IMG/VR virus record: IMGVR_UViG_3300038701_002017
Coordinates: 1-49,363 of that record
Source: a virus
Direction: 5' to 3' (one strand)
DNA length: 49,363 nucleotides
Notes under the pieces: model-generated
Told to the model about the DNA's origin: nothing
The model's input: only the letters and a program-made list of their open reading frames with translations
The model's database searches: none
Position numbers and translations under genes: made by a program
Part shown: piece by piece, positions 314-15,371 of the stretch
Position numbering within the stretch: position 1 is the stretch's first letter
Layout: each line of letters begins with the position of its first letter

Positions 314-519
314 TTAAAGTGCTTGTTGGTACGTCTTTACTGTTCTTATACTGCCTGCTCATATCAAAACCTTTTTCGTGGCATCAGGTAAATAAATCAC
401 ATAACAACCACAGCCAGCGGAACTTCGTCCGCCGCTGTATTGGCTATAACTCACTAAAAATACCCAAAACTTCTTTTTCTATAACTAGCGAGCTCCTCCG
501 GCTCATCAAAACCATGCTG

Positions 520-1023
520 TCAGCAAGGCTTATTATCATCAAATACGGGGGATAGCTCGTGTAACGCTACAAGATATATGGCTTTCGCTTTCAGCTTCTT
601 AGCGTGCTGCGGTGAATACTCGCAAATCAGCGCAATGTCTCGATCACAAATATCAATCGGCAGCTTATGTGCTTTGTAAATCGACCTTGGCAAAAACAGC
701 ATAAATAACAATGTTTGCGCTCGCGGCGAAAACTCAGTTGCTAATAATTTTGTGATTGCTTTTACTCGTTTTTCAATTGTTTCTGTTCTGACTGCGCCGG
801 TAGGCGGTTTGCTCTTGCCTTGAGGCCTGTCCTGCTTTGCGTTTACCTTGGTTTTGAAGCCAGCCGGGTTATAGTTTTTACACGTATTCGCGCTTGCAAG
901 TATGTTGCCGCCGCTCGTTGTTGCGTAATATTCAAAGTCACCACGATTTAGGTATGTTAAAAACGCCCACTTAGTTAAAAGATCTTCTGCTTTTTGAATC
1001 CTGTACTCAGTGCCAGTTGTCAT
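520..1023 (-). CDS. Hypothetical protein, last gene of leftward early operon (possible late regulator)
   Basis: This 167-residue protein is unrecognised. It has a basic, proline-rich linker around residues 60-85 and a mostly helical C-terminal half rich in Leu and Ala. An AGGT-type ribosome site lies just upstream of the ATG. It sits right after the NinG-like gene and ends the O-P-Nin style operon, the position that holds the late antiterminator Q in lambdoid phages. I infer a possible Q-like role only from position. No zinc fingers or clear helix-turn-helix are visible, so the function stays open. Confidence 0.6.
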   Translation of the reverse strand: MTTGTEYRIQKAEDLLTKWAFLTYLNRGDFEYYATTSGGNILASANTCKNYNPAGFKTKVNAKQDRPQGKSKPPTGAVRTETIEKRVKAITKLLATEFSPRAQTLLFMLFLPRSIYKAHKLPIDICDRDIALICEYSPQHAKKLKAKAIYLVALHELSPVFDDNKPC

Positions 1024-1031
1024 TGGTTTAC

Positions 1032-1436
1032 CTACTGATAAGATACAAAATCTAATATGCCCGTTTCGCCGTTACTTCTTCGCTCTGTTAAAACCTTTAG
1101 TTGCTCCCGGTAGTGCTTTGCAATTTCTTTTTCTTCGATCTTTGATATTTTTAACTTTGTGTTTTTCTTCTCGATTAAAATATCCTCCCGGCCTTGGCCG
1201 TATTTCTCGACAAACCATAAACCTGCTTCAGTCGGGTTTTCGTGCCACCACCTGTGGCATGTGTGGCACTTCGCTATTGCGTTATCCGCACACCAGCGTA
1301 TCGTCCTGTGCTTGCGAGAGTGGATATGGCTACACTCTACCCGGCCAACTCTTCCGCACCTCGCGCACGTATGATCAAACGCTAAGTGAATGCAGTCTGA
1401 AAAAGCTTTATCTGCTGGCGAGATTTTAATTCCCAT
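1032..1436 (-). CDS. NinG/Rap-like HNH-type recombination protein
   Basis: The product is about 134 residues when started at the ATG at 1436, which overlaps the end of the previous gene by 11 bases and has AGGG upstream. An N-terminal C-x-x-C pair (TCARCG) is followed by CSHIHSRKHRTIRW and by CHTCHRWWHENP, the zinc-binding and HNH-like layout of lambda NinG (Rap). Rap is a structure-specific endonuclease that acts on recombination intermediates. The C-terminal third is charged and probably helical. Its place near the end of an O-P operon matches the nin region. A longer frame extends upstream to 1505 but would overlap the preceding gene by 80 bases. Confidence 0.75.
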   Translation of the reverse strand: MGIKISPADKAFSDCIHLAFDHTCARCGRVGRVECSHIHSRKHRTIRWCADNAIAKCHTCHRWWHENPTEAGLWFVEKYGQGREDILIEKKNTKLKISKIEEKEIAKHYREQLKVLTERRSNGETGILDFVSYQ

Positions 1437-1764
1437 ACATGCCCTGCTCTCTGCGTACATTTGCAGACTTGGTGCGCCAAATATCAACCCGCCGCTCTGC
1501 AACATTCATTCGGTGCTTTAAAGATTCGCTGTTCTCTACAGCCACTTTCAGCCCCTCTAGCAACGCAATATAATCAGGGTGTGAGTAAGCATATGTTTCT
1601 CGCTCCTGACCCGTTTTAAACCCCTTGGCTTCGGCTTCAGCCATAAGAATTGCTTTCTTGCTTTTGCGAAACTCTCTTAAATACTCTGCTTCAGCCTTGG
1701 CTTTGGCACATGCCGGGATCGCTTCTCGCCAGTCGTGAATTAATCGCTCGATTGACTCACTCAT
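1426..1764 (-). CDS. Small helical phage protein of unknown function
   Basis: The start is fixed by an ATGA overlap with the stop of the preceding gene (1761-1763), giving 112 residues. The protein is highly charged and alpha-helical, with Ala/Lys/Glu runs in the first half and ALLEGLKVAVENSESLKHRMNVAERR in spaced heptads in the second half, which suggests a coiled coil. The pattern (ALLEGLK, then an IWR motif near the C-terminus) looks familiar from hypothetical proteins in phage early operons, but I cannot assign a function. Confidence 0.7.
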   Translation of the reverse strand: MSESIERLIHDWREAIPACAKAKAEAEYLREFRKSKKAILMAEAEAKGFKTGQERETYAYSHPDYIALLEGLKVAVENSESLKHRMNVAERRVDIWRTKSANVRREQGMYGN

Positions 1765-1919
1765 ACCCGGGTACTCTTGTTTAGCTTGTGACTCTCCATG
1801 TTCGACTTGATCCACTCTTCGCCGTTGTGCCGATAAACAAATCCATTCCGGCCAATCTTGTAATACTGAAAAGCGATAACGTGAGTCGCGTCTTCCGGTC
1901 TAGCTCTTGTGAATAGCAT
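1761..1919 (-). CDS. Small phage protein of unknown function
   Basis: The ATG at 1919 gives 52 residues, beginning MLFTRARPEDATHVIAF and ending in a stop that overlaps the next gene by ATGA. An alternative ATG lies at 1946 but increases the overlap with the upstream gene to 47 bases. The composition (aromatic-rich, with YYKIGRNGFVYRHNGEEW) is typical of the small beta-rich proteins in phage early operons. No catalytic motif is visible. Confidence 0.6.
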   Translation of the reverse strand: MLFTRARPEDATHVIAFQYYKIGRNGFVYRHNGEEWIKSNMESHKLNKSTRV

Positions 1920-2166
1920 TCCAAACGTACCCTTTGCTTGCGTCATAAATCTCTACCGCAAAGCCATGCTCTTGTAAGACTTCAAGATCCTGCTGTACTT
2001 CGATCTCCCACAAGTCCAGCTCAAGCCCAAGATCCAAAACGCTCGAATCGCGCTGCTTTTTCAAATGAAAATAAATCATTCTCTGAGTCTCGCTGAAGTC
2101 GATTAGCTCGCCCTTGCAGTCGTAAGGGCGAGCTTTCTCTGGCTTCTCGCAGATAAAACAATTCAT
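1900..2166 (-). CDS. Small protein with N-terminal zinc-knuckle-like motif and winged-helix-like body
   Basis: The 88-residue product starts at an ATG that overlaps the upstream stop (ATGA at 2163-2166). Cys3, Cys6 and a later Cys in the first 16 residues (CFICEKPEKARPYDC) suggest a small metal-binding knuckle. The rest, with QRMIYFHLKKQRDSSVLDLGLELDLWEIEVQQDLEVLQEHG, has the helix spacing of a winged-helix DNA-binding fold, such as those in phage operon regulators. That reading is an inference and the target is unknown. Confidence 0.65.
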   Translation of the reverse strand: MNCFICEKPEKARPYDCKGELIDFSETQRMIYFHLKKQRDSSVLDLGLELDLWEIEVQQDLEVLQEHGFAVEIYDASKGYVWNAIHKS

Positions 2167-2459
2167 GCCGATTTTCTCATTTTGACTTTGCCAGCAAGGT
2201 GCATTTCAAGTTTGGCAATAATCCCGTCAATGCTGTCATCGCTCGCCGCCTGCGTTGCTCTGGCGTATATCTCACCGCGCTTGAAATCCTTGTTGCCAGA
2301 GGTCTTGATATGCGCCTTGATTGCAGTGTCCAAAGCTGCCAGTTTTTTATCCCTTGCCGCTGTGTAAATATCAAGCCACGATTTCATTAGCAGTTCAGTG
2401 CGCGGGGTGCTTCTTGCCATCCCTACTCGTTGCCAGTAATCGGTTAGGTTTTTGCTCAT
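2163..2459 (-). CDS. Hypothetical small early protein
   Basis: This 98-residue protein begins at an ATG overlapping the stop of the P-like gene (ATGA at 2456-2459), so it is translationally coupled to it. It is basic and helical, with TDYWQRVGMARSTPRTELL near the start and a lysine-rich tail. I do not recognise a family. Its place directly behind the O- and P-like genes suggests a role in replication or in modulating the host at early times. Confidence 0.65.
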   Translation of the reverse strand: MSKNLTDYWQRVGMARSTPRTELLMKSWLDIYTAARDKKLAALDTAIKAHIKTSGNKDFKRGEIYARATQAASDDSIDGIIAKLEMHLAGKVKMRKSA

Positions 2460-3007
2460 GCCTCAGTCCTCACTTTTCGACTTCCCATTTTTCCCAGCAA
2501 ATCATTCATCACTGTTCGCACTTGATCTCGACCGAACTTTTTGGTGTGAGTTGTGCCACTAGGATTTTCGATTTGTGGCCGCTCTTGAATTTTGAATACT
2601 TCGCCTGCCGCGATTCGCCTTACAGCATTTTCATAAATCGGCTTGAATCGCTTTCTCGCCTCGCTCTCTGCAAGTTGCCGCAAATCAAACCTGTGTTGTG
2701 CGAATAAAACCCTGAAGGCTTCTGGCATCATATTCCATTGTGCAAGGATCAGAGCGCGATAGGTCGCCTCAAATTCTGGCAAGCCAAGATCAACTGCCTT
2801 CGGCTTGCAATGATTTCGCATGATATTCAAACTCATATACGTTGATCCCGAGTTCTTGAAGCCGTGAAATCCTTTGACCAACTGCGCTTCTGAAAACTCT
2901 GATAGTTCTCTTGCCCAATAATCAAACGACGAACTGCCAGCCATGCCGTATTGATTCTTGAAAGCCGAACCAAGTTCATCGGTTAAGAGCTGCCAAAGCT
3001 TGGTCAT
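2456..3007 (-). CDS. Replication protein P-like helicase loader
   Basis: The sequence MTKLWQLLTDELGSAF, then YWARELSEFSEAQLVKGF and a later EFEATYRALILAQW, matches the layout of lambda P family proteins. These recruit the host DnaB helicase to the origin-bound O complex. The ATG at 3007 gives 183 residues and a 32-base overlap with the O-like gene. An upstream ATG at 3160 has a better ribosome site (GGGGAG six bases away) and would give 234 residues, the usual length of P, but would overlap the O-like gene by 185 bases. Both starts stay open. Its partner O lies immediately upstream. Confidence 0.75.
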   Translation of the reverse strand: MTKLWQLLTDELGSAFKNQYGMAGSSSFDYWARELSEFSEAQLVKGFHGFKNSGSTYMSLNIMRNHCKPKAVDLGLPEFEATYRALILAQWNMMPEAFRVLFAQHRFDLRQLAESEARKRFKPIYENAVRRIAAGEVFKIQERPQIENPSGTTHTKKFGRDQVRTVMNDLLGKMGSRKVRTEA

Positions 3008-3773
3008 CGCCAGCAGGTGGGCTTGCGTCAATTTGCCGTTGAAGCTCTGCTGCGTATGCTGCGTTGTGCAGTGTTGCTTGCTCGATGGTTGATAGTTTCG
3101 GCTGGCTAGTGAATTGATTACCTGGCTTGCCGTTTTTGTTGCGATAGTTGAGTTTGGCATTTAGCGCTCCCCAAATTTGTTTTTTAGGTGTGTCTCTTAG
3201 CTCAAGATCAAGTTGCGGATATTCAGAAATCAAATCCAGATTCGGAAACAATTCTTTGTGCCGCTGAAAGTCTTTCTGGTTAACGTTGAATTGCTCACCG
3301 TGAAATGCGTAATCGTCCAAACCGCCGTCAGGCGTTGTGGTTTCTTGTTTTTCATTCCCTGTTCCCTGTTCCCTGCTCCCTGTTCCCTGTTCCTTTCCGC
3401 CAGTGATCTGTCCGTGATCGCTCACTGAATTATCAGTGATTGGCTTGAAGCCCTTTATTTTACTGGGGTTTGGGCGATTCACTTTTTGATGTTGAGTGAA
3501 ATTCAGTATATGTCCGTATTGCTTACCGTCAGTACCCGTAAAAAGCGTTAAATACCGGGATTTTTCAAGCTGTTTGAGCAATCCGTGAACACTCAGTGAT
3601 TGATCACTGAAAGGAAAAACGGCAGCTTTTACCAAAGCTTCATGCGCTTTGAAATAGCCTTCGTCATCCGAATGATTTAATAAACCTATTGCCAGAAGCT
3701 TTGTTTTATCGTCAAGCATTGCAATATCTTCATCAGTCCAAAACTCCGGCTTTATTGATCTAATTCTTGCCAC
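2976..3773 (-). CDS. Replication initiator, phage O-like
   Basis: The N-terminus (ARIRSIKPEFWTDEDI, residues 2-17) is the hallmark of a large set of phage replisome-organiser proteins with an N-terminal winged-helix domain. The domain continues to about residue 120. A low-complexity linker rich in EQGTG follows, encoded by heptamer repeats, and then a C-terminal region likely to contact the P-like loader. The GTG start at 3773 has a G-rich stretch just upstream. Length (265 residues) and gene order O then P are as in lambdoid phages. As in lambda, the candidate origin lies inside the gene. Confidence 0.75.
   Translation of the reverse strand: MARIRSIKPEFWTDEDIAMLDDKTKLLAIGLLNHSDDEGYFKAHEALVKAAVFPFSDQSLSVHGLLKQLEKSRYLTLFTGTDGKQYGHILNFTQHQKVNRPNPSKIKGFKPITDNSVSDHGQITGGKEQGTGSREQGTGNEKQETTTPDGGLDDYAFHGEQFNVNQKDFQRHKELFPNLDLISEYPQLDLELRDTPKKQIWGALNAKLNYRNKNGKPGNQFTSQPKLSTIEQATLHNAAYAAELQRQIDASPPAGDDQALAALNR
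3355..3609. other. Candidate phage replication origin inside the O-like gene
   Basis: Five tandem heptamers TTCCCTG (one with a single change) run from 3355 to 3389, followed by a degenerate sixth to 3396. Next to them are CAGTGAT boxes at 3401-3407 and about 3434-3440, GTGATCGCTCAC between them, and a perfect palindrome CAGTGATTGATCACTG at 3594-3609. Lambda places its origin iterons within the O gene, and these clustered repeats occupy the equivalent place. Function is inferred from repeat structure and position only. Confidence 0.45.
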
Positions 3774-3866
3774 ACCACCCCCTACGATCTTTTAAACGCC
3801 TTCCCTTGGTTGCTATGATGACCTTGCTACAAACCACCACAATCAACCAACAGAAGGACTTAAACT

Positions 3867-4070
3867 ATGTCAGCTTTCGACAATTAAAATATCGAAATCA
3901 CCTGTACCAACTGCCAGAAGAAAAACCCAAAAACTATCGGCTGGATTAAGCGAAACAAGGACTTTGTTTGCGCTTGTGGCACCCTGATTAGTCTCAAGTC
4001 TGAACATCTTCTCAAAGAGATCAGGAGTGCCGAGAAGCAGCTCTCTGACCTTACAAAGAATATCTTCTGA
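3867..4070 (+). pseudogene. Zinc-ribbon protein gene interrupted by an in-frame stop
   Basis: From the ATG at 3867, preceded by AAGGA eight bases upstream, the frame reads MSAFDN, then a TAA at 3885-3887. It then continues without further stops for 60 codons to the TGA at 4068-4070. The continuation contains two C-x-x-C-like pairs (CTNC and CACG) separated by about 21 residues, followed by a heptad-rich helix, the typical plan of small phage zinc-ribbon proteins. The paired cysteines argue that this strand is coding. It lies antisense between two leftward genes. Possible -35 TTGGTT and -10 TACAAA sequences lie upstream. A real nonsense mutation is the simplest reading. Confidence 0.5.
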
Positions 4071-4205
4071 CGCCGTACCAAGTGCTTTTTTGAGCTGCTG
4101 TAGACATGCGTCGAAATTCTGCTTGTCTAGCTCTAATTCAATGCTTTGTTCCGTCACGTCGAAACCCCTGTTTCATTGACTTTCATGTACAAAATTTGAT
4201 CAATT

Positions 4206-4227
4206 AAAAGCCCGGACGAATCCGGGC
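4206..4227 (-). terminator. Intrinsic terminator behind the Cro-like gene
   Basis: On the leftward strand the stem GCCCGGA / TCCGGGC with a four-base loop is followed by four T residues. It lies just past the stop of the regulator gene, where lambda has tR1. The same 18-base hairpin recurs at 46372-46389. Confidence 0.7.
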
Positions 4228-4233
4228 GGTTGA

Positions 4234-4440
4234 TTAAGCTGCTGAATCGGATGGGAAAAGAATTTCTTCTAGCGACATTTCCCCTCCGCTGGCCATCTCT
4301 AATCGCTTGGCTAATCTGGCGGAAACGTTGCCATTAGCTAAAGCAATTTGTTGAAAGTTGCCAAAGGTGGTTTCTGCATCAAGACAAACCGCCTCGATGC
4401 GCTCTTTTGGGTTCGATTTGTAAAATTTATATGGAGTCAT
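4234..4440 (-). CDS. Cro/YdaS-like DNA-binding regulator, leaderless
   Basis: The 68-residue product carries a helix-turn-helix-like segment (VCLDAETTFGNFQQIALANGNVSARLAKRLEMASGG) followed by EEILFP, close to the YdaS/Cro pattern in which the recognition helix is followed by a LAKRLE...GG and a short Leu-Phe-Pro tail. It likely binds the TTAGTG-type operators in the adjacent intergenic region. The leftward -10 box ends seven bases before the ATG, so transcription probably starts at or within a base of the start codon. That would make the mRNA leaderless, as for lambda cI from PRM. A longer frame to 4476 would run into the promoter and is unlikely. Confidence 0.7.
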   Translation of the reverse strand: MTPYKFYKSNPKERIEAVCLDAETTFGNFQQIALANGNVSARLAKRLEMASGGEMSLEEILFPSDSAA

Positions 4441-4447
4441 GAAGCGG

Positions 4448-4476
4448 ATTATTAGTGTTTTACTAACTCTTGTCAA
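4448..4476 (-). promoter_or_regulatory. Leftward early promoter
   Basis: Read on the minus strand this is TTGACA (4471-4476), a 17-base spacer, and AATAAT (4448-4453). An operator palindrome fills the spacer, so repressor binding would exclude RNA polymerase. It would drive the Cro-like gene and, past the terminator, the replication operon. Confidence 0.75.
4452..4466. promoter_or_regulatory. Operator 1
   Basis: TTAGTGTTTTACTAA is an imperfect 15-base palindrome in the spacer of the leftward promoter. It matches the site at 4620-4634 at 13 of 15 positions. Confidence 0.65.
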
Positions 4477-8058: not shown

Positions 8059-8256
8059 ATGCAATCAGTTTACAAGCAGATCGAAAAAGAATTTGGATCT
8101 TTCAAAGGAGCCAAAAAGCATGGCAATCCTGATCAGTATATTCAGGGCGTGATCGACTGCAAGGCGGGTTTAAAGGCGCTATCACAACACCCTGATTATG
8201 TGAAAGGGTATCAAATGCAGTACAACTTTGAAGAATTGAGCCGGGGGATATTGTGA
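8059..8256 (+). CDS. Hypothetical small protein before the annealase gene
   Basis: The 65-residue product (KQIEKEFGSFKGAKKHGNP, then GVIDCKAGLKAL) is not assigned. It follows the methyltransferase by three bases and overlaps the Erf gene start (GTGA). Its basic, compact composition and position suggest an accessory of the recombination genes, which is inference from context only. Confidence 0.65.
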   Translation: MQSVYKQIEKEFGSFKGAKKHGNPDQYIQGVIDCKAGLKALSQHPDYVKGYQMQYNFEELSRGIL

Positions 8257-8951
8257 GCACAGCAATCAAAAAAATAGAACAAATCGCAACGCCAGCAACG
8301 CTGCTACAGACTGCCGTTGAGCAAGGCGCGGATCTTGATAAGCTAGAAAAGCTAATGTGTTTACAAGAACGCTGGAACGCAGAGCAAGCCCGAAAATCAT
8401 ACTTTGAAGCATTTACCCACTTTCAATCTATCGTGCCAGCTCTGAAGAAAACAAAGCAGGCACACAATTACAAATACGCGGCGCTATCTGATATTGCCGA
8501 GCAAATAAAACCAGCCATGAATGAATGCGGCCTCTCTTATCGTTTCGAGCAAAAGACAGTTGATAGTGCTATCGAAATCACCTGTCTTGTAAGCCATGTT
8601 GATGGGCACACTGAGCGCAACACAATGCAAGGCGCACCCGATACCAGCGGCAGCAAAAACGGCATTCAATCAATTGGGTCAACCGTGTCCTATTTGCAGC
8701 GCTACACACTAATAGGCGCGCTCGGAATCACCACCGCTGATGAAGATATGGACGGAAGACTAGCGCTGGCCGGGGGTAATTTTATTTCTAATGATCAGAT
8801 AGCCAAACTTGAAACGCTGGTTGGTCAACTGGCTAATCGCGATAAGTTTATGACTCATTTCAAAATCAAAGAAGTGAAAGATTTGCCAGCCGCTCAATAC
8901 GTGCAAGCAATGTCAATGCTACGAAATAAAATAATGAGGGATAAAGCGTGA
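8253..8951 (+). CDS. erf: ERF-family single-strand annealing protein
   Basis: The GTG start overlaps the preceding stop. The 232-residue protein carries the ERF core: YAALSDIAEQIKPAMNECGLSYRF (about residues 76-99), then GAPDTSGSKNGIQSIGSTVSYLQRYTLIGALGI, then DEDMDG. ERF proteins such as P22 Erf anneal complementary single strands and circularise phage genomes. The C-terminal 60 residues form a separate helical domain. The exonuclease immediately downstream would supply single-stranded tails, giving a two-component recombination system analogous to Red. Confidence 0.9.
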   Translation: MSTAIKKIEQIATPATLLQTAVEQGADLDKLEKLMCLQERWNAEQARKSYFEAFTHFQSIVPALKKTKQAHNYKYAALSDIAEQIKPAMNECGLSYRFEQKTVDSAIEITCLVSHVDGHTERNTMQGAPDTSGSKNGIQSIGSTVSYLQRYTLIGALGITTADEDMDGRLALAGGNFISNDQIAKLETLVGQLANRDKFMTHFKIKEVKDLPAAQYVQAMSMLRNKIMRDKA

Positions 8952-9565
8952 TTATTGAAACATTCGCTCAAGGATCGCAGGAGTGGCTTTCTGCCAGGCT
9001 AGGAATTCCAACCGCTTCTCAGTTCGACAAGATTATCACCGCTACCGGCAAGCCATCATCACAAGCTGACGGGTATATGTGCAAGCTGGTAGCCGAATAC
9101 CTCACAGGCGAATCAGAGCCTTTCTTTGCAAATCAGTGGGTCGAGCGAGGCAATTTGTTAGAGCCAGAGGCGCGACAAGCTTATGAATTTTATTCAGATT
9201 ACGAAGTCGAAGAAGTCGGCATTGTCTATCTGAATGATCAAAGGCTTGTTGCCGGTAGTCCTGACGGTTTGATTAAGGGCGAAAAGATAGGCTTAGAGAT
9301 TAAATGTCCAGCGCCTCACACGCATGTTGCAAATGTTCTATCTGGCGCAATGCCAAGCCAGTACAAACAGCAAGTGCAGGGCAACATCTGGATTTGCGAG
9401 GCTGATCATTGGGATTTTATGTCCTATCACCCGCATATTTCGCCGCTTATCGTGCGGATAGATCGAGACGATAAATATATCAAAACCTTGGCTGAGTTAA
9501 TGGACGAATTTACCGACCGAATGCTTGCGGCAAGAGAAAAACTTTCACTTTTACAGGTAGTATAA
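8948..9565 (+). CDS. YqaJ/lambda-exonuclease-type recombinase nuclease
   Basis: The 205-residue protein starts with GTG, overlapping the erf stop. It shows the PD-(D/E)XK layout of this family: [17 protein letters not shown] (residues 8-24), [17 protein letters not shown] with the metal-binding Asp, and LEIKCP with the Glu-x-Lys pair. A QVQG motif follows. The enzyme degrades one strand of duplex DNA from its ends and works with the annealase upstream. The SSB gene follows after two bases. Confidence 0.9.
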
Positions 9566-9567
9566 TC

Positions 9568-10110
9568 ATGGCTCGTGGAATCAATAAAGTAATTTTAATA
9601 GGTAATTTGGGTAATGATCCTGATTGTAGGACAGCACAAAACGGCACCATGTTTGCAAATCTATCTGTAGCAACTGACGAAAGCTACAAAGACAAACAGA
9701 CCGGCCAGATTGTACCTAAAACAGAATGGCACCGGGTTATATTTTCGGCTCGCATGGCTGAAATCTGTCAGCAATACCTGAAGAAAGGATCAAAGGTTTA
9801 TATTGAGGGCAAGCTGCAAACTCGCAAATGGCAAGATCAGTCAGGGCAGGATCGCTATACAACTGAAATCCGAGGCTTTGAATTGCAAATGCTCGACAGC
9901 AAGCCCGAAGGCCAGCAACCACAACAGCCACAGCCAGCGCCCCAGCAAAGCTACCAACAGCCAGCACAACAGCAAGGCCGCGCCCAACCATCGCCAATGG
10001 CGAACAATCCGAGAGGGCCAGCCCATCAGCCAATGAATAACGGCGTGCCTCCTGCCGTGGATGATTTTAGCGATGACATTCCGTTCGATAAATACGTCCC
10101 GGTTGTTTGA
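9568..10110 (+). CDS. ssb: Single-stranded DNA-binding protein with extended C-terminus
   Basis: The N-terminal OB fold starts [19 protein letters not shown] and runs to about residue 110 ([13 protein letters not shown]). A Gln/Pro-rich linker follows, then the acidic tip DDFSDDIPF. Bacterial SSB normally ends at the Phe, which docks replication and repair partners. Here seven further residues, DKYVPVV, follow before the stop. SSB protects single strands made by the helicase and exonuclease encoded upstream. The stop codon lies within GGTTGTTTGATATG, the last phage sequence before the accessory genes. Confidence 0.95.
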
Positions 10111-10476: not shown

Positions 10477-10530
10477 ACATAACCACAAGCACAACGGCGC
10501 GATAGCGTCCGATGATGCGCCTTGTTAGGC
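10477..10530 (+). other. attC site 0 (left edge)
   Basis: R'' ACATAAC (10477-10483) and R' GTTAGGC (10524-10530) enclose CAAGCACAACGG and CCGATGATGCGCCTTG, which fold as a stem. It is nearly identical to the site at 13847-13894. Confidence 0.8.
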
Positions 10531-10545
10531 GCAGGAGATTAGACA

Positions 10546-10920
10546 GTGAAGATAGTTTCAAATGAAGAAATGAACAAGCTATTTGCTGAGATTGATGCCG
10601 AAAAGCTAAGGCTTGCGGAAAAAATGCCAACAGAACAAGACGCCATTAATCAAATCCAAGAAGCGTATACAAGGTTAAAAGATCTGGGTTGGAATGATGC
10701 GATTTATAGCCCAAAAGATGGCAGCTGGTTCTCTTCGATTTCGGTAGGGAGTACAGGCATACACAAGTGCTGCTATTCAGGTGAGTGGCCTAAAGGCGGC
10801 TGGCATGTATGGGATGGTGATTTATGGCATTCTCAACCTTGCCTTTGGAGACCACGCAAGGATAGTGACCCTGAAATAGACCTAGGACTAGCTACGGACT
10901 ATAGATGTTGTGACGCCTAA
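10546..10920 (+). CDS. Cassette 1: Trp-rich hypothetical phage-type protein
   Basis: The GTG start has AGGAG nine bases upstream, and the TAA is part of the R'' box. The 124-residue product has a helical N-terminal 50 residues and then a tryptophan-rich domain: AIYSPKDGSWF, GSTGIHKCCYSGEWP and GGWHVWDGDLWHSQP. This pattern resembles small proteins I associate with phage and prophage early regions, but their function is unknown to me. The cassette runs from 10525 to 10969, with TTAGGC at its left end complementary to GCCTAAC at its right. Confidence 0.75.
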   Translation: MKIVSNEEMNKLFAEIDAEKLRLAEKMPTEQDAINQIQEAYTRLKDLGWNDAIYSPKDGSWFSSISVGSTGIHKCCYSGEWPKGGWHVWDGDLWHSQPCLWRPRKDSDPEIDLGLATDYRCCDA

Positions 10921-10975
10921 CCTTTCTATTTTACGGCAGCGTCTTTTCGCTATCCGAAAGAATGGGTTGTTATAC
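10915..10975 (+). other. attC site 1
   Basis: R'' GCCTAAC (10915-10921) and R' GTTATAC (10969-10975) enclose TTTTACGG and CCGAAAGAA arms. Crossover is expected between G10969 and T10970. Confidence 0.8.
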
Positions 10976-11005
10976 GAATTTATTTATTAATTTAGGAGAA
11001 TAATT

Positions 11006-11251
11006 ATGTGCTACTGCACACCTGCTATTAGATGTATTTGTTGTGGTAGGCCTGATTGCCATCCAAAACAAAATGTAACTCATATTGAAGACCATAAACC
11101 GCATTTAACTGTAAATTGTGGTGAAACTGTTCATGTGATACCTGTTTCACTCATTGAAGCTGTAATAGCAGGTAAGAAAGACTTTACTCAAATAGATGAC
11201 TGGGAAGACTTATTAAAAACCATATTAAGAGATTGGATTAATAGCGTATAA
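11006..11251 (+). CDS. Cassette 2: Cys-rich small protein
   Basis: TAGGAG lies eight bases before the ATG. The 81-residue product starts MCYCTPAIRCICCGRPDCHP, with six cysteines in the first 20 residues that look metal-binding, followed by an acidic helical C-terminus. Short proteins starting MCYCTP are familiar to me from phage genomes, with no known role. The TAA overlaps the R'' box. Cassette ends TTATAC and GTATAAC are complementary. Confidence 0.75.
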   Translation: MCYCTPAIRCICCGRPDCHPKQNVTHIEDHKPHLTVNCGETVHVIPVSLIEAVIAGKKDFTQIDDWEDLLKTILRDWINSV

Positions 11252-11294
11252 CCGCGCTATTCATCGGTTTATCCGCTGGAATGCTTTGTTATGT
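11246..11294 (+). other. attC site 2
   Basis: R'' GTATAAC (11246-11252) and R' GTTATGT (11288-11294). The left arm of the inner repeat is short, and the right arm contains ATCCGCTGGAATG, shared with the next three sites. Confidence 0.75.
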
Positions 11295-11318
11295 GATTAT
11301 CAATTAAGGAGGTGATTT

Positions 11319-11516
11319 ATGAAGAAATATATTACAGGGTTTTACTACACTATGATTTTGACATGGATAGGATTGTTTGGTGGAACATTTAGAGACAAGA
11401 AAAACGTCTACATCTTATGGCCGATTCACATTAGAACAAAAAGACAAGTGACTATAGAAAGGTGTAATTTTTACACGCTATATGAAATTAGATGTTTATT
11501 TCATTACCACATATAA
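11319..11516 (+). CDS. Cassette 3: small membrane-anchored protein
   Basis: The ribosome site is the ideal AAGGAGGTGAT, placed just before the ATG. The 65-residue protein has one hydrophobic segment (TGFYYTMILTWIGLFGG, residues 6-22) followed by a basic, aromatic-rich tail, suggesting an inner-membrane anchor with the tail in the cytoplasm. The stop lies in ATATAAC. No homologue recognised. Confidence 0.65.
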   Translation: MKKYITGFYYTMILTWIGLFGGTFRDKKNVYILWPIHIRTKRQVTIERCNFYTLYEIRCLFHYHI

Positions 11517-11574
11517 CCTTTTCATTCTGCGAGTCGCCGTCTCTTTGGCGATCCGCTGGAATGGGTTGATATGT
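11511..11574 (+). other. attC site 3, degenerate right box
   Basis: R'' ATATAAC (11511-11517). The right box is GTTGATATGT (11565-11574), off consensus, although its reverse complement (ACATATCAAC) is close to the left box CACATATAAC. The inner arms are GAGTCGCC and GGCGATCCGCTGG. Confidence 0.6.
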
Positions 11575-11611
11575 TACCGTCACGATAGAGGATTGATTGG
11601 AGTGATTGAAA

Positions 11612-11821
11612 ATGGTAGATGAAATCGAATTTATGCACATGGAGTTAGATAGAGACAGGAGCGAGAAATTTGAGTGTGATGAGTGCGAAAACGTAAGCTC
11701 TATTGACTGCGTTGAAGATCTAGAAGACGAACATTATGAAGCGTTACAGGCTGAAGGCTGGATTTACGATGACGGTAATATGCTTTGTGATGAATGCAAG
11801 GATAGATTGAAGAACTTTTGA
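11612..11821 (+). CDS. Cassette 4: acidic zinc-ribbon-like protein
   Basis: GGAG lies nine bases before the ATG at 11612. The 69-residue, very acidic protein has two C-D-E-C knuckles (FECDEC near residue 24 and LCDECK near residue 60), the two halves of a zinc ribbon. Acidic small zinc proteins can act as protein inhibitors or nucleic acid mimics, but nothing fixes the role here. The TGA stop precedes ACATAAC by one base. Confidence 0.7.
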   Translation: MVDEIEFMHMELDRDRSEKFECDECENVSSIDCVEDLEDEHYEALQAEGWIYDDGNMLCDECKDRLKNF

Positions 11822-11822
11822 C

Positions 11823-11946
11823 ACATAACGATTAAGTTCAGTGGCTACTAGCCAACACAAACCCTAAACGAAGAGGATGAAAGCAATGAATCAAAAGAAT
11901 GCTGGAAACGTCGCGGCTAGTAGTCCGCTGGAACGTATTGTTATGC
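11823..11946 (+). other. attC site 4, long form
   Basis: R'' ACATAAC (11823-11829) and R' GTTATGC (11940-11946) are 124 bases end to end. The arms are CAGTGGCTACTAGCC and GGCTAGTAGTCCGCTG, a long near-perfect stem. The loop carries a GAGG ribosome site and ATG at 11886 in frame with the next gene. Confidence 0.8.
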
Positions 11947-12146
11947 GTGAGGGCTATTGCTGCGATTGTAAAAACAACCCTGAAGAGACGCTGCCTATGG
12001 CCTCTAAAATCGAGGGCAATGGTTGTTGGTTCACAGACGATAAACAGAACTGGGTTTCTAAGAACGGGAAGCAATATTACACAGATGATGGAATGTTAAT
12101 GAACGGAAATGGTACAAGAAGTATATTCGATGATATAGATGCGTAA
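11886..12146 (+). CDS. Cassette 5 protein, readable from a start inside attC site 4
   Basis: Two starts are in frame. The ATG at 11943 lies in the core box (GTTATGC) and gives the cassette's own 67-residue protein, MREGYCCDCKNNPEETLP onward. The ATG at 11886 lies in the loop of the preceding attC site, has GAGG nine bases upstream, and adds 19 residues encoded by the recombination site. The body has a C-C-D-C cluster and a TDDKQNW/TDDG segment. The weak ribosome signal at 11943 suggests that the attC loop helps translation. The function is unknown. Confidence 0.65.
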   Translation: MNQKNAGNVAASSPLERIVMREGYCCDCKNNPEETLPMASKIEGNGCWFTDDKQNWVSKNGKQYYTDDGMLMNGNGTRSIFDDIDA

Positions 12147-12156
12147 CGCGCGTTGT

Positions 12157-12286
12157 GAGGGGCTGGCAATTTGGTAATGCTAGGAGATAGCTTTGTGATG
12201 AAAATTCTAGATAAAGTAATCGCTAAGTGCACGCACTCTGACCGGCATCGCACCGGTGTATGCGGGTTCGATTCCCGCACCCCTCT
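12157..12286 (+). tRNA. tRNA-like element with internal insertion (cassette 5)
   Basis: The 3' half is clear: T arm GCGGG-TTCGATT-CCCGC (12262-12278) followed by CCCCTC, which pairs with GAGGGG at 12157-12162. The D arm is GCA-AATTTGGTAA-TGC-like with the expected TG before it and GG in the loop. ACCGG-CATCGCA-CCGGT (12241-12257) is a five-pair stem with a seven-base loop in the anticodon place, but it lacks U33. About 59 bases separate D arm and this stem, far more than normal, so it may be degenerate, interrupted or a tRNA mimic. No encoded CCA. The amino acid is not assigned. Confidence 0.45.
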
Positions 12287-12292
12287 ACTTAC

Positions 12293-12344
12293 GCATAACC
12301 AATACAGCAGCACGGCGTAGCTCCGCTGGCTGTGGTCGTTATGT
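12293..12344 (+). other. attC site 5
   Basis: R'' GCATAAC (12293-12299), with CGCATAAC complementary to the cassette 5 left end TTATGCG, and R' GTTATGT (12338-12344). The right arm holds CTCCGCTGG. Confidence 0.8.
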
Positions 12345-12364
12345 GTGAATTTGAGGATTGATTG

Positions 12365-12562
12365 ATGGCGATGGTTGACTACAGGTGGTGCAACGTGTGT
12401 GGTTGTAAGGCATTTTATGACGCTGAATTATCCTATTGCGACGATAAACTTAGTGCACAAAACGGGCAACCGCTCCCTGACGGGCGTGTGGCAGATATGG
12501 CTTGTTTGTGTGATAGATGCATTAAAACTCACGAAATTATAGTTAAACATAAAGGCAGCTAA
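12365..12562 (+). CDS. Cassette 6: Cys-rich zinc-binding-like protein
   Basis: GAGG lies eight bases before the ATG at 12365. The 65-residue product has CNVCGC near the start, then a middle Cys, and CLCDRC near residue 50, enough ligands for one or two zinc sites. No DNA-binding helix is evident. The cassette left end is TTATGTG, but the right box is AGCTAAC rather than the expected complement, so this cassette may have a diverged or hybrid right end. Confidence 0.65.
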   Translation: MAMVDYRWCNVCGCKAFYDAELSYCDDKLSAQNGQPLPDGRVADMACLCDRCIKTHEIIVKHKGS

Positions 12563-12616
12563 CCCTTGCCATAAACGGCGAGTGAAACGAAGTCTGATTT
12601 AATGGCGTTGTTATAC
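12557..12616 (+). other. attC site 6
   Basis: The R'' box AGCTAAC (12557-12563) is off consensus, and R' is GTTATAC (12610-12616). The arms GCCATAAA and TTTAATGGCG pair. Confidence 0.65.
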
Positions 12617-12630
12617 GCTGGGAGATAAAA

Positions 12631-12888
12631 ATGAGTCACGACCCAAAGGAAATTATTAGCGATGAAGAAATTGAGCGCGTCCATGCGAACGCAAATTTTG
12701 GCAGCATGGACAAACGCACCGTGGTTAATCAAGGGGTGCTGAAATGCGCCAGCGGTTACTACCAAGGAAGCACATCAAACGCGATCATCAAAGAGCACGG
12801 CCTTGTAAATGACGCATATGAGCTGACGCCAAAAGGGAAGGCATATCTTTGGGCGGCTTTCGCTAACCCACCTGAACTGAGCGTATAA
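12631..12888 (+). CDS. Cassette 7: small hypothetical protein
   Basis: GGGAG lies eight bases before the ATG. The 85-residue protein has an acidic helical N-terminus (HDPKEIISDEEIERVHANANFG) and a compact C-terminal part with GVLKCASGYYQGSTSNAIIKEHGL and LTPKGKAYLW. The last segment resembles a winged-helix or phage regulatory small domain, but this is a weak inference. The stop overlaps GTATAAC. The nine bases GCGTATAAC are exactly complementary to the cassette left end. Confidence 0.7.
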   Translation: MSHDPKEIISDEEIERVHANANFGSMDKRTVVNQGVLKCASGYYQGSTSNAIIKEHGLVNDAYELTPKGKAYLWAAFANPPELSV

Positions 12889-12937
12889 CCACTAGCGAAG
12901 CGGGGCCGAAGGCCTCCGATTACGCGCCTTGTTAGGC
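12883..12937 (+). other. attC site 7
   Basis: R'' GTATAAC (12883-12889) and R' GTTAGGC (12931-12937). GGGGCCGAAGGCCTCC folds as a compact stem-loop between them. Confidence 0.8.
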
Positions 12938-12953
12938 GCGAGGATTGATAAAA

Positions 12954-13142
12954 ATGAAATATTTAGTTTATCAAGTTGGTTGCATTGAATGCGGTGTATC
13001 ATCGTATCCAGTAAAAACAGCCGATACATTAGAAGAAGCAAACGATATTGCCGATAAACACCCGTCAACTTGGGATTCAGAAGGTGGTGATGGGTATGTG
13101 ACAATAATTGATTTAGAAAACTGCTGCGAAGTAGAAAGCTAG
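12954..13142 (+). CDS. Cassette 8: small alpha/beta protein with Cys pair
   Basis: The ATG at 12954 has GAGG about ten bases upstream. The 62-residue product MKYLVYQVGCIECGVSS, then a TLEEANDIADKHP helix and GGDGYVTIIDLENCC, suggests a beta-alpha-beta fold with a C-x-x-C pair. Similar small proteins are known to me only as hypothetical. It ends 16 bases before the R'' box, unlike most cassettes here. Confidence 0.65.
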   Translation: MKYLVYQVGCIECGVSSYPVKTADTLEEANDIADKHPSTWDSEGGDGYVTIIDLENCCEVES

Positions 13143-13158
13143 ATTGATTTGTTTTGTC

Positions 13159-13276
13159 GCCTAACCCCAAGCTTTGCGGCTTGCATAGAAGGAATTAGAT
13201 ATGAGTGAAGAATTAGAAGTTAAAAATGAAGATGGCGCGAAGTGTGGCAAGTCCGACCAAGGGCGTGTTGTTATGC
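13159..13276 (+). other. attC site 8, long form
   Basis: R'' GCCTAAC (13159-13165) and R' GTTATGC (13270-13276) are 118 bases end to end. The arms GGCTTGC and GCAAGTCC pair. The loop contains a ribosome site and ATG at 13201 in frame with the next gene. Confidence 0.7.
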
Positions 13277-13488
13277 GCCATAAGCACGACTGTAGTAAAT
13301 GCACCCCTTTGGGTATTTTTGAAGATTACGACCTTTATTACTGCGACAGTACAGAGACTACATTAATTGCGAGATTTGGTGAAGACGGGGATTATAAGAG
13401 CGGACTTTGTTCCGGTGAAACTGGAATAGATCCTGTTTTGGCTATTGCTTACCACATGGCGAGAGCTAAGAAATTAATTGACGCATAA
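13201..13488 (+). CDS. Cassette 9 protein, started inside attC site 8
   Basis: AAGGA lies seven bases before the ATG at 13201, inside the upstream attC loop. The cassette proper begins at 13271, where TTATGCG gives an in-frame ATG at 13273. From there the protein is MRHKHDCSKCTPLGIFEDYD, with LYYCD and a helical tail (AIAYHMARAKKLIDA). The D-C-x-x-C...DLYYC...ARFG pattern recurs in small phage proteins of unknown role. The 24 extra N-terminal residues are encoded by the recombination site, the second case of this in the array. Confidence 0.65.
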   Translation: MSEELEVKNEDGAKCGKSDQGRVVMRHKHDCSKCTPLGIFEDYDLYYCDSTETTLIARFGEDGDYKSGLCSGETGIDPVLAIAYHMARAKKLIDA

Positions 13489-13530
13489 CCCGCACAACAC
13501 CGGCTTGTCCGGTGCTTGTGCTTGTTATGC
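13483..13530 (+). other. attC site 9
   Basis: R'' GCATAAC (13483-13489) and R' GTTATGC (13524-13530). GCACAACACCGG and CCGGTGCTTGTGC form a near-perfect stem around a five-base loop. This is the clearest site of the series. Confidence 0.9.
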
Positions 13531-13541
13531 TTTTTATTTGC

Positions 13542-13569
13542 TTGACTTGTTACGGTATTGCGTTACACT
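13542..13569 (+). promoter_or_regulatory. Promoter inside cassette 10
   Basis: TTGACT (13542-13547), 16-base spacer, TACACT (13564-13569). The expected start of transcription falls at or one base before the ATG at 13577, implying a leaderless message. Confidence 0.6.
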
Positions 13570-13576
13570 ATTCCCC

Positions 13577-13852
13577 ATGATTGAGAAAAAACAGTGTGAA
13601 AACAAAGAATGCGGCAAAGACTTTTACGGCACCAAGCGTGCTAAGTTTTGCAGCGATAAATGCAGAGTGACAAACTGGAGAAATACTATGAAAAAACGCA
13701 AAGTTGAATACACAATTTATGGTGAAAACGATGCGGTGCTAAAGCAAGGTGAATGCTTTGCGAGATATGGTGAATATGAAATGCAGGATATTTGTGACCA
13801 CGCTAATATTGATTTTGACGACGTGTGGAGTATGACAACTACCAACACATAA
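13577..13852 (+). CDS. Cassette 10: zinc-finger protein with own promoter
   Basis: The N-terminus has C-x-x-x-x-C followed by FCSDKCR (about residues 7-30), a small zinc finger like those in DUF2116-type proteins. The remainder is a beta-rich domain with VEYTIYGENDAVLKQGE and an acidic C-terminal part. An internal ATG at 13688 could start a second product. No ribosome site precedes the first ATG, which fits the leaderless promoter just upstream. Cassettes with private promoters often carry genes needing constant expression, such as antitoxins, but no toxin partner is seen. Confidence 0.65.
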   Translation: MIEKKQCENKECGKDFYGTKRAKFCSDKCRVTNWRNTMKKRKVEYTIYGENDAVLKQGECFARYGEYEMQDICDHANIDFDDVWSMTTTNT

Positions 13853-13894
13853 CCCCAAGCACAACGGCTCGTCCGTTGATGCGCCTTGTTAGGT
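13847..13894 (+). other. attC site 10
   Basis: R'' ACATAAC (13847-13853) and R' GTTAGGT (13888-13894). CAAGCACAACGG pairs with CCGTTGATGCGCCTTG. It is closely similar to site 0. Confidence 0.85.
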
Positions 13895-13922
13895 GCATTT
13901 ATTAACTGAAGAGGAAAACGAG

Positions 13923-14132
13923 ATGCTAATGTATGATGATGAAAGAGAAATAAAATATTACAACAACGATATTGCACAAGAAACAGTTTCAGTCGGTAAG
14001 GACGGTGTCACTAAAATCGAAGTTTACAAAGAGCACGGCAATGGTGACTTTATACCGTACTTAGCTGTTTGGAAGGGTAATGTTTTATTTATGAGAACCG
14101 CGGCAATAGGAAAAGAAATAGTATACGCCTAA
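13923..14132 (+). CDS. Cassette 11: small beta-rich protein
   Basis: GAGG lies about nine bases before the ATG at 13923. The 69-residue product is predicted beta-rich (IKYYNNDIAQETVSVGKDG, then TKIEVYKEHGNGDFIPYLAVW), ending in ...IGKEIVYA. A GTG at 13893 could extend it by ten residues into the core box. No family recognised. The stop lies within the R'' box. Confidence 0.65.
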   Translation: MLMYDDEREIKYYNNDIAQETVSVGKDGVTKIEVYKEHGNGDFIPYLAVWKGNVLFMRTAAIGKEIVYA

Positions 14133-14221
14133 CCTTTGCGTTAAGCGGTGAGTGAAAGTGGCGAAGCCAACTGTAACGAATCCGACGACCAAAGGGAGTG
14201 AATTTAAACGCGTTGTTAGGC
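14127..14221 (+). other. attC site 11
   Basis: R'' GCCTAAC (14127-14133) and R' GTTAGGC (14215-14221), 95 bases. Inner arms GCGTTAA and TTTAAACGCG pair near the ends. Confidence 0.75.
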
Positions 14222-14261
14222 GGTTTTGTCTGGCAATTTAATCAAAGAAAGAGGAAATACA

Positions 14262-14486
14262 ATGGATAATCAACACAAGAAAATTAAAGGCTACCGCGAT
14301 TTAAGTCAAGCTGAGATTGATGCTATGAACGCGGTTAAAACGAAAGCCGAAGAGGTTGGTGTTTTAATCGAAGAGCTACAAAGCAATAAACAGTTAGATC
14401 AACGATGGGTTGCTGTAGCTAAAACGGATTTACAAAAAGGCTTTATGGCTGCTGTGCGCGCTGTAGCACAACCAGAGAGTTTTTAA
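14262..14486 (+). CDS. acb2: Cassette 12: Acb2-like anti-CBASS cyclic nucleotide sponge
   Basis: The 74-residue helical protein fits the Acb2/Tad1 hairpin family: [19 protein letters not shown] at the N-terminus, [19 protein letters not shown] in the middle and [10 protein letters not shown] at the end. Acb2 proteins bind the cyclic nucleotides made by CBASS (and some related systems) and so stop abortive infection. Tyr11 and Lys26, which I recall as ligand-contacting residues in the studied Acb2, are present at the same numbers. GAGG precedes the ATG. It shares its cassette with the next gene, three bases downstream. Confidence 0.85.
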
Positions 14487-14489
14487 GTT

Positions 14490-14693
14490 ATGGCTACTGG
14501 TGATAAAGCTAGGATGCTGCAAAAGTTTGGCGAAGAGCTTTGCAAGGTTGCTAATGACCGAACAAGATTGCAAATAGCTTTCGAGAAAACGTTAAACAAG
14601 CTTGGTTTGCCAGATAGCCAAATAAATAAAATAGTAAAAGATGTCAGGGCGGCTGATTTTGACAGCTTACACAAAACGTTGAAATTGGATTAA
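14490..14693 (+). CDS. Cassette 12: second gene, small helical protein
   Basis: The 67-residue protein is all-helical and basic, with FGEELCKVANDRTRLQIAFE, then LGLPDSQINKIVKDVRAADF. It lies three bases after the Acb2-like gene within the same cassette, so the two move and are expressed together. A role as a partner or second anti-defence factor is inference from linkage. The cassette's nine-base right end CCGCCTAAC exactly complements its left end TTAGGCGG plus the core base. Confidence 0.65.
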   Translation: MATGDKARMLQKFGEELCKVANDRTRLQIAFEKTLNKLGLPDSQINKIVKDVRAADFDSLHKTLKLD

Positions 14694-14695
14694 CC

Positions 14696-14761
14696 GCCTA
14701 ACCTTTAAATTTGCGGTTGAGAGCCGCAGGCGAACAATCCGACAACATTTTGTTGTTATGT
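14696..14761 (+). other. attC site 12
   Basis: R'' GCCTAAC (14696-14702) and R' GTTATGT (14755-14761), 66 bases. TTTGCGGTTGAGAGCCGCAG gives an internal GCGG/CCGC stem, and AACATTTTGTTG lies next to R'. Confidence 0.75.
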
Positions 14762-14782
14762 TTCTACACTAGGAGTTTAAAT

Positions 14783-15196
14783 ATGTGGAGTCCACAAAGA
14801 GAGCTAGTTAAACATGCGGCTATTATTGCCTCTGACAAGCACCCCGAAGGGTACAACAAGCACCAGTTAATAGAGGCTTCGAGGGAGGTGTTTGGTGGTT
14901 TCGGAGCCAACCCTAATAAAAAAGTTAAAACACATGAACAGGCTGCGCATTACTCAAATTACCTTTCTGAGATAGATGGGGGATACCCTAGAGGGCTTAG
15001 TACATGCTTTGCAGTTGGAATATCCGGTAATTGCGGAGTTGATTGTGCTCAGTTTGTTGATGGCTTCTGCGAGACACCTAACTTTGATCTTGATGATGTT
15101 TTAGACACTCACGGCGAAACAGAAGGATTGAAAATAGCTGAGAGTTACGGGGAATTTGAAGACGAGCTTAACGCTCGATTTCCACTAGAAATATAA
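14783..15196 (+). CDS. Cassette 13: hypothetical protein
   Basis: AGGAG lies eight bases before the ATG at 14783. The 137-residue protein begins MWSPQRELVKHAAIIASDKHP, has a glycine-rich stretch (VFGGFGANPN), then CFAVGISGNCGVDCAQFVDGFC with four cysteines, and a very acidic C-terminal region. The cysteine cluster may bind a metal or a cofactor, but no family is recognised. The stop lies in ATATAAC, the left box of the last site. Confidence 0.65.
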   Translation: MWSPQRELVKHAAIIASDKHPEGYNKHQLIEASREVFGGFGANPNKKVKTHEQAAHYSNYLSEIDGGYPRGLSTCFAVGISGNCGVDCAQFVDGFCETPNFDLDDVLDTHGETEGLKIAESYGEFEDELNARFPLEI

Positions 15197-15314
15197 CACT
15201 TGATTCAGGGTCGCCATGTCGCGATATCCGCGATTATTTTTACAAAGCGACTTGATGTCGGTATATCCTGAAAAATATGTCTTGCAAAAATGCGCCCTGA
15301 GTGATAAGTTTTAG
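15191..15314 (+). other. attC site 13, long form and right edge of the array
   Basis: The left box is ATATAAC (15191-15197), and the most likely right box is GTTTTAG (15308-15314). Outer arms ACTTGATTCAGGG and CCCTGAGTGATAAGT pair imperfectly. The 124-base length equals that of site 4. The right box departs from consensus, as expected where cassette DNA meets phage DNA. Confidence 0.5.
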
Positions 15315-15337
15315 CTATTGTGCAACAAATCCCTCAT

Positions 15338-15371
15338 AAGCCCTGACCTCTCACGAGTTCGGGGCTTTTTT
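15338..15371 (+). terminator. Intrinsic terminator before the lysis genes
   Basis: AAGCCCTGA pairs with TCGGGGCTT and is followed by TTTTTT. It closes the early operon with the cassette array and would require antitermination for late transcription from upstream. Confidence 0.7.

Follow-up and report, generated by a model that had tools for sequence, protein, structure and literature searches.

A long attC cluster with genes inverted relative to their sites in a phage early operon

Integron-type cassettes in phages

Clusters of attC sites lacking integrase (CALINs) are already known from virulent and temperate phages; 17 of them were reported by Qi et al. (2023; PMC9892861), who found that attCs of TJE1, H101/PH101, and P12002L recombine with IntI1. 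Here, we describe an array of this type in the IMG/VR virus record IMGVR_UViG_3300038701_002017, a possibly incomplete sequence of 49,363 bases, hereafter called the window, which harbours lambda/N15-type packaging genes, including a TerL about 50% identical to those of Pseudomonas phages and N15, as well as a capsid protein gene. The array resembles the described phage CALINs as an attC cluster without integrase, methyltransferase cargo being a further trait in common with phage arrays, but it is longer, with 11 to 15 sites compared with three attCs (four open reading frames, ORFs) in TJE1 and four detected attCs in H101. A preliminary description of this DNA had considered such an array unusual in a phage, which holds for its length of 13 to 14 cassettes beside TJE1, but not for its type, since phage attC clusters functional with IntI1 had already been described.

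With sedentary chromosomal integrons, the window array shares the site architecture (R'', L'' with an extra base, L', and R'), one short gene per cassette, and R boxes matched across genes. It differs from them by the absence of intI and of a recognised attI, by genes that are antisense to attC, by the position of attC before the ribosome-binding site, and by its phage-related cargo. The temperate Shewanella phage M16-3 also carries an attC array in its genome, but has its own IntI and co-directional genes. In integrons, the choice of the attC bottom strand by IntI sets the orientation of the cassette for expression from the promoter Pc (PMC8946536), a textbook rule to which the gene polarity in a large group of phages appears to be opposite. 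The window is a long new member of the known phage CALINs, and the systematic inversion is apparently the new part. Gene–attC reversal is not described in the accessible part of the report of Qi et al. (PMC9892861), whose TJE1 is co-directional and whose H101 is inverted according to the present analysis; nor is systematic inversion in phages described in the open-access literature, preprints being outside the search.

With a probability of about two in three, we consider the locus to be a CALIN in a phage early operon, composed of some 14 exchangeable cassettes in which gene and attC point in opposite directions. Each unit would read on the minus strand as R' cut point, antisense gene, R'', L'', L', and next R'; in the phage direction, attC would precede the ribosome-binding site of its gene rather than follow the stop codon.

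The attC sites of the window

The run of attC sites extends from 10477 to 14761, between ssb (9568–10110) and the lysis-side genes (from 15366), and its short genes are all located on the plus strand. This position and single gene orientation, already noted in the preliminary description, were borne out, the sites by a site detector and a covariance model. The weights of the detector come from only 14 attCs, namely those of class 1 plasmid cassettes (arr-3, dfrA1, aadA1, aadA2, and others), Shewanella (the phage M16-3 integron), and Vibrio. It yielded nine distinct window sites scoring at least 34, all within 10477–13894, compared with none in 60 dinucleotide shuffles of the whole window (maximum 33.9), and two further array sites scoring 28 and 30; the experimentally proven attCs of phage TJE1, serving as a control, scored 36 to 42. 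The covariance model (Infernal) rests on 29 attCs, of which most stem from bacterial genome contigs; the window and metagenomic viral contigs contributed none. In a check that had set the threshold beforehand at three attC sites, it detected seven distinct sites in the window at E ≤ 0.05, every one inside the array. The array is a genuine attC cluster above chance. No attC family exists in Rfam, a search of which yielded no match at gathering scores.

In the sites, L'' and L' arms, the former with an extra base, lie between R'' and R' boxes (RYYYAAC and GTTRRRY). Eleven score at least 28, their canonical top strand lying on the minus strand except where stated: attC 1 (10477–10530; 42.7, and 31.8 bits with E 9e-5 in the covariance model), attC 2 (10915–10975; 35.5, and 24.1 on plus), attC 3 (11246–11294; 44.3; 19.7 bits), attC 5 with a long hairpin (11823–11946; 53.2, and 26.6 on plus), attC 7 of ambiguous strand (12293–12344; 36.7 on plus, 35.1 on minus), attC 8 (12557–12616; 34.1; 20.0 bits), attC 9 (12883–12937; 41.4; 31.8 bits), attC 11 (13483–13530; 45.5; 39.7 bits, and 14 on plus), attC 12 (13847–13894; 49.0), attC 13 (14127–14221; 30.5, and 26.8 on plus), and attC 14 (14696–14761; 28.4). 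The minus-strand attC 10 (13159–13276) is weak (21.9), with boxes that match those of its neighbours across genes. Three further minus-strand sites are degenerate, namely, attC 4 (11512–11578, approximate bounds), read from the sequence, with one R box GATATGT in place of GTTATGT; attC 6 (12141–12158), a remnant that retains both R boxes (GCGTAAC....GTTGTGA) without arms; and a possible fifteenth site at the array edge (15191–15315; 20.4). This edge, which is the attI side in canonical polarity, carries an R box GTTATAT on minus (15191–15197), and no further attI feature was recognised there.

The fourteen attC-like sites previously proposed thus stand as a run of attC sites, with their number amended to eleven at 28 or above, one weak, and three degenerate; likewise, the thirteen cassettes are retained as short one-strand genes, in about 14 gene–attC units. 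One unit contains two ORFs (14262–14486 and 14490–14693), and another (12148–12292) has no ORF of at least 45 residues but a tRNA-like RNA. No tyrosine recombinase, and hence no integron integrase, was found among the genes of the 49,363-base record, and the window holds the features that define a CALIN (at least two attCs within a few kilobases and no intI), in agreement with the earlier proposal of an integron-type array without integrase inside a phage early operon.

Inverted polarity in the window

The L'' arm of known attCs holds an extra base, and their RYYYAAC-AA lies near the stop codon of the gene. In the window, the extra-helical base and the TAACAA and CGGA signatures are on the minus strand, and all cassette genes are on the plus strand, as exemplified by GCATAACAATACGTTCCAGCGGAC...GTTATGT at 11946–11823 on minus. 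All these genes are therefore antisense to the canonical attC top strand, the strand being ambiguous only at 12293–12344, and attC 12 is assigned by the covariance model to minus with 41.2 bits (E 7e-7) versus 9.5 bits for plus. The preliminary description had labelled R'' and R' as though attC and genes shared one direction; this assignment is to be reversed. The window tally is 0 genes with attC and 6 against. Co-directionality, usual in bacteria although not strictly required by the CALIN definition, is absent from the window, and in all controls (class 1, Shewanella, Vibrio, and TJE1) attC runs along the genes.

Since most of the plus-strand genes are preceded by a Shine-Dalgarno sequence and four of them match phage protein families or Acb2, they are genuine genes of that strand. 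An ORF-calling artefact is rejected by the Shine-Dalgarno placement at phage and bacterial sites given below, by the GenBank genes of H101, and by the PHROG matches of the called ORFs. A symmetric-site artefact is likewise rejected, the median score margin between strands being 15 to 43 and the covariance model bits at attC 12 being as given above.

Polarity in viral and bacterial arrays

The survey used one degenerate attC-core pattern scanned in viral and bacterial collections, together with an earlier first viral pattern, and arrays of at least three sites were tallied. In viral contigs, 98 genes run against attC and 12 with it (33 arrays), versus 6 against and 63 with it in bacterial contigs (16 arrays), a difference with a Fisher p of about 1e-28 by genes and 1e-8 by arrays. 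Four of the six contrary bacterial genes belong to a single contig from a metagenome-assembled genome (L329), with a phage-type integrase beside its array. The control arrays gave 22 with and 1 against, and with a further viral pattern, used as a replicate, 1 gene ran with attC and 17 against it. The sequence type of the attCs is rejected as a cause, since viral and bacterial arrays found with one and the same pattern differ in polarity.

Ten phages in which a terminase, a portal protein, or an equivalent was recognised, including the cultured isolate H101, account for 1 gene with attC and 41 against; the sites of H101 occupy the plus strand at 75919–77987, and the GenBank genes of that stretch are on minus. 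Two measures independent of ORF calls agree with these counts: a Shine-Dalgarno complement lies at most 28 bases 5' of R'' at 64% of the sites in inverted phage arrays versus 8% of bacterial ones, and a Shine-Dalgarno sequence 3' of R' at 5% versus 37%. Where one genome carries divergent arrays (G001, G003, G006, and L193), every array is reversed with respect to the genes it contains. Gene–attC reversal is the rule in most of the sampled phage arrays and the exception in bacteria, and the inverted layout recurs in many unrelated phages.

Cassette mobility and source of the integrase

Excision as circles cut at G|TT predicts that R' matches R'' across the gene and not within the site. Such is the case in viral arrays, with 0.67 R-box mismatches out of four across genes versus 1.59 within sites (permutation p 2e-4), in bacterial arrays (0.47 versus 1.72), and in the window alone (0.67 versus 1.5, p 0.019). 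Because the R boxes pair across genes, these comparisons of box sequences show that the cassettes have, by all appearances, moved as integron units.

Among 30 array-bearing viral contigs, whose records may be incomplete, an integron integrase above the curated cut-off was detected in only one, the temperate phage L112, and no tyrosine recombinase in 23. No dedicated recombinase common to array phages was found either, no protein family being present in at least three of six array phages. Since most array contigs are devoid of tyrosine recombinase and the six phages have no common protein family, a host IntI acting in trans is the likeliest source of the enzyme; the earlier suggestion that an integrase acting in trans built the array is accordingly upheld as probable. 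In L112 (IMGVR_UViG_3300031616_000017, 323–4471), the phage's own integron integrase, 55% identical to IntI1, stands beside six attCs, and the cassettes, which include a gene resembling 3'-phosphoadenosine-5'-phosphosulfate (PAPS) reductase, are mostly inverted.

A DNA search of INPHARED with the first 25 kb of the window gave no match, hence no close named relative. Relatives identified by the lysis protein, ERF, TerL, and methylase have single modules in common with it, and in none is a comparable interval bordered by ssb and the lysis genes. Homologous cassettes in different phages, compared as to which attC travels along, gave seven weak pairs with no difference between the 5' (0.54) and 3' (0.53) sites, and a BLAST search of one attC against INPHARED returned chance matches only. 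Two relatives of the helicase–methylase pair of the window, L118 and L126, carry inverted arrays upstream of the helicase, a position that differs from that in the window; they have two short cassette stretches in common (84–90% identity) in different contexts.

The genetic neighbourhood of several arrays is of a recurrent kind. Genes for ERF, exonuclease, and SSB are directly followed by the array in the window, G006, and L176, and lie within about 1.3 kb of it in G004, L191, and L217; inverted arrays downstream of such genes occur in unrelated phages (L157, L176, L152, L191, L217, and the window). In G006, a 119-base stretch containing an attC is present with 96.6% identity and opposite orientation in both divergent arrays (L157, 4673–4795 and 13444–13562), which suggests a recent exchange between them.

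Alternative explanations

The reading as a phage CALIN of exchangeable inverted cassettes has to be weighed against several others. It is very improbable that the array consists of ordinary bacterial cassettes, a stretch of host integron inserted backwards by illegitimate recombination and now immobile. Phage and bacterial attCs hardly differ in their sequence logos, the phage lacks an integrase, and several window sites are degenerate, all as that origin would have it; but the insertion of a reversed block flips genes and sites together, whereas in the window the genes run contrary to the sites they belong to, and the cassette genes with recognised relatives resemble phage genes. This polarity refutes a block insertion unless the array of the donor host was itself inverted. 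Somewhat less remote, though still improbable, is a role of attC-derived hairpins as homology linkers, whereby annealing by the ERF, exonuclease, and SSB proteins would shuffle genes between phages without any integrase. The adjacency of arrays to these genes, the scarcity of tyrosine recombinases in array phages, and the duplicated stretch of G006 speak for it. Against it stand the matching of R boxes across genes and not within sites, as exchange at the GTT core predicts, the diversity of sites within one array, too great for ordinary annealing, and the extra-helical base and spacers, which are kept as in bacteria and are not demanded by homology alone.

We give equally little credit as to the reversed bacterial block to the possibility that the repeats act in RNA, with sense-strand hairpins that shield the early mRNA, take part in its processing, or adjust translation, and a likeness to attC due to descent only. 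The inverted layout does place the attC bottom-strand fold in the mRNA directly 5' of each ribosome-binding site, but an RNA role predicts neither box pairing across genes nor conservation of the R' core, and the minus-strand consensus is that of bacterial attCs. The strongest of the alternatives, though on balance unlikely, concerns the origin of the inversion: the orientation that persists would be the one that makes the recombinogenic bottom strand the non-template strand, which is single-stranded in the course of early transcription or replication. In its favour, single-stranded exposure improves the folding of attC bottom strands (PMC8946536), and in genomes with divergent arrays the inversion holds for each array with respect to its genes; this support is indirect, since a replication origin between divergent arrays would look alike, and co-directional phage arrays exist. 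A filter on expression and exposure of the coding strand may each produce the bias.

Several observations count against the CALIN reading or narrow it. No excised circle or empty site was found and no recombination was observed; no close relative with other cassettes at the ssb–lysis position was found among the relatives mentioned above; and a function could be assigned in only one window cassette. The viral sample rests on two related attC patterns in IMG/VR, and a Vibrio-type pattern gave 27 genes with attC and 2 against; most of these hits come from IMG/VR records that bear isolate-genome numbers and may represent host superintegrons beside prophages. Finally, TJE1, L160, and L202 are co-directional phage arrays, and the inversion amounts to a strong bias rather than a law. 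The co-directional arrays of L202 (11415–12642) and L160 (4316–5035) contain PAPS-reductase-like genes, with a Mom-like DNA modification gene in L202. In the deposited Vibrio phage Va_90-11-286_p16 (L135, 14409–17585), host genes for ribosomal proteins L20 and L35, an initiation factor, and threonine-tRNA ligase lie beside the integron, so the phage boundary of this record may be misplaced.

Under the favoured reading of the locus as a phage CALIN, an integrase from the host or a co-resident element would recombine the folded attC bottom strand, here the coding strand; such recombination would add, drop, and reshuffle cassettes, and the phage early transcript would express all of them. As the orientation of a cassette inserted by IntI is always set by attC, a phage-type cassette captured at a bacterial attI would be antisense to Pc and silent, and a normal bacterial cassette in the phage would be antisense to the phage operon. 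The two cassette pools would then be functionally separate and chemically exchangeable. We tentatively propose, at somewhat less than even odds, that phages keep a cassette class of their own, with a reversed gene preceded by attC, forming a counter-defence pool chemically compatible with bacterial integrons and silent there, which host integrase shuffles in trans, so that host integrons serve as enzyme source and silent storage. If so, phages would hold a separate exchangeable cassette pool, at least in part devoted to counter-defence, which co-directional integron surveys would misread; this bears on how phages swap anti-defence genes rapidly, and on whether host integrons, familiar as stores of accessory genes, are exploited by the viruses that they face.

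Cassette contents and expression

The only window cassette with an assigned function contains, at 14262–14486 (plus, as are all genes below), a homologue of Acb2, known as a sponge against the cyclic-oligonucleotide-based anti-phage signalling system (CBASS; PMC12043709). Its product has an Acb2/Tad1 hairpin domain (PF24729, E 1.7e-21, 76.6 bits versus a curated cut-off of 27; PDB 8h2j, E 1e-19), and the gene is a likely anti-immunity (anti-CBASS) gene as judged by homology. Within the family (PF24729; PDB 8h2j and 8ixz; T4 Vs.4), the window protein starts with the 16 first residues of 8h2j and covers the hairpin domain, but it has 74 residues compared with 93 in 8h2j, about 20 middle residues being absent, and its gene resides in an integron-type cassette. 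Directly 3' in the same cassette, the gene at 14490–14693 encodes 67 residues of no named family, a candidate partner counter-defence gene. Pfam searches of 144 cassette proteins from phage arrays identified six N6_N4 methylases, three MT-A70 methylases (members counted per family, and families may overlap), two Lar restriction-alleviation proteins, and this Acb2, most others being unnamed. The cargo would thus be largely counter-defence, with Acb2 here and DNA methylases and Lar elsewhere.

With regard to the other cassettes, three genes match phage families with distant or named relatives: 11006–11251 (phrog_30574, E 5e-12; a distant relative in Pseudomonas phage PS-1), 12365–12562 (phrog_19621, E 1.3e-8; relatives in Pseudomonas phages), and 12631–12888 (phrog_18088, E 2.5e-11; relatives in phages phCDa and RpAliso). 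The gene at 13577–13852 encodes a zinc-finger/HNH-like protein (phrog_16925, E 9e-5). The first cassette gene (10546–10920; Shine-Dalgarno GCAGGAG) has its stop codon within the R box of the next site, and two others, each with a Shine-Dalgarno sequence, start within the loop of an attC, at 11886–12146 (attC 5) and 13201–13488 (attC 10). The ORFs at 11319–11516 (Shine-Dalgarno AAGGAGG), 11612–11821, 12954–13142 and 13923–14132 (both with a Shine-Dalgarno sequence), and the last cassette gene at 14783–15196 (TAGGAG) belong to no named family.

The cassette without ORF contains at 12156–12285, on plus, a tRNA-like RNA with a predicted fold of −47 kcal/mol (z −2.05). Over 12148–12292, this RNA displays acceptor-, D-, anticodon-, and T-arm-like stems, with some 55 bases in addition, and its T arm matches the end of the transfer-messenger RNA (tmRNA) model with E 5e-4, below the gathering score; ARAGORN recognised no tRNA or tmRNA in it, nor was a complete structure found.

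The preliminary description attributed expression of the array to a phage promoter at 4609. This sequence matches at 9 of 12 positions, but such matches number 17 in the window versus 25 expected from shuffled DNA; being no commoner than by chance, they lend the attribution no support. A promoter-like sequence, likewise matching at 9 of 12 positions, lies just before the 13577 gene, at 13542–13569. Directly upstream of the array, ssb (Pfam SSB, E 1.4e-33) is the last gene of an ERF–YqaJ exonuclease–SSB recombination module, preceded by the ERF gene (8253–8951; Pfam ERF, E 1.9e-20) and exo (8948–9565; Pfam YqaJ, E 6.2e-26). Downstream of the array, a terminator-like hairpin, read from the sequence and with a loop exceeding the limit of the terminator scan, is present on plus at 15338–15367, where AGCCCTGA...TCGGGGCT is followed by T6.

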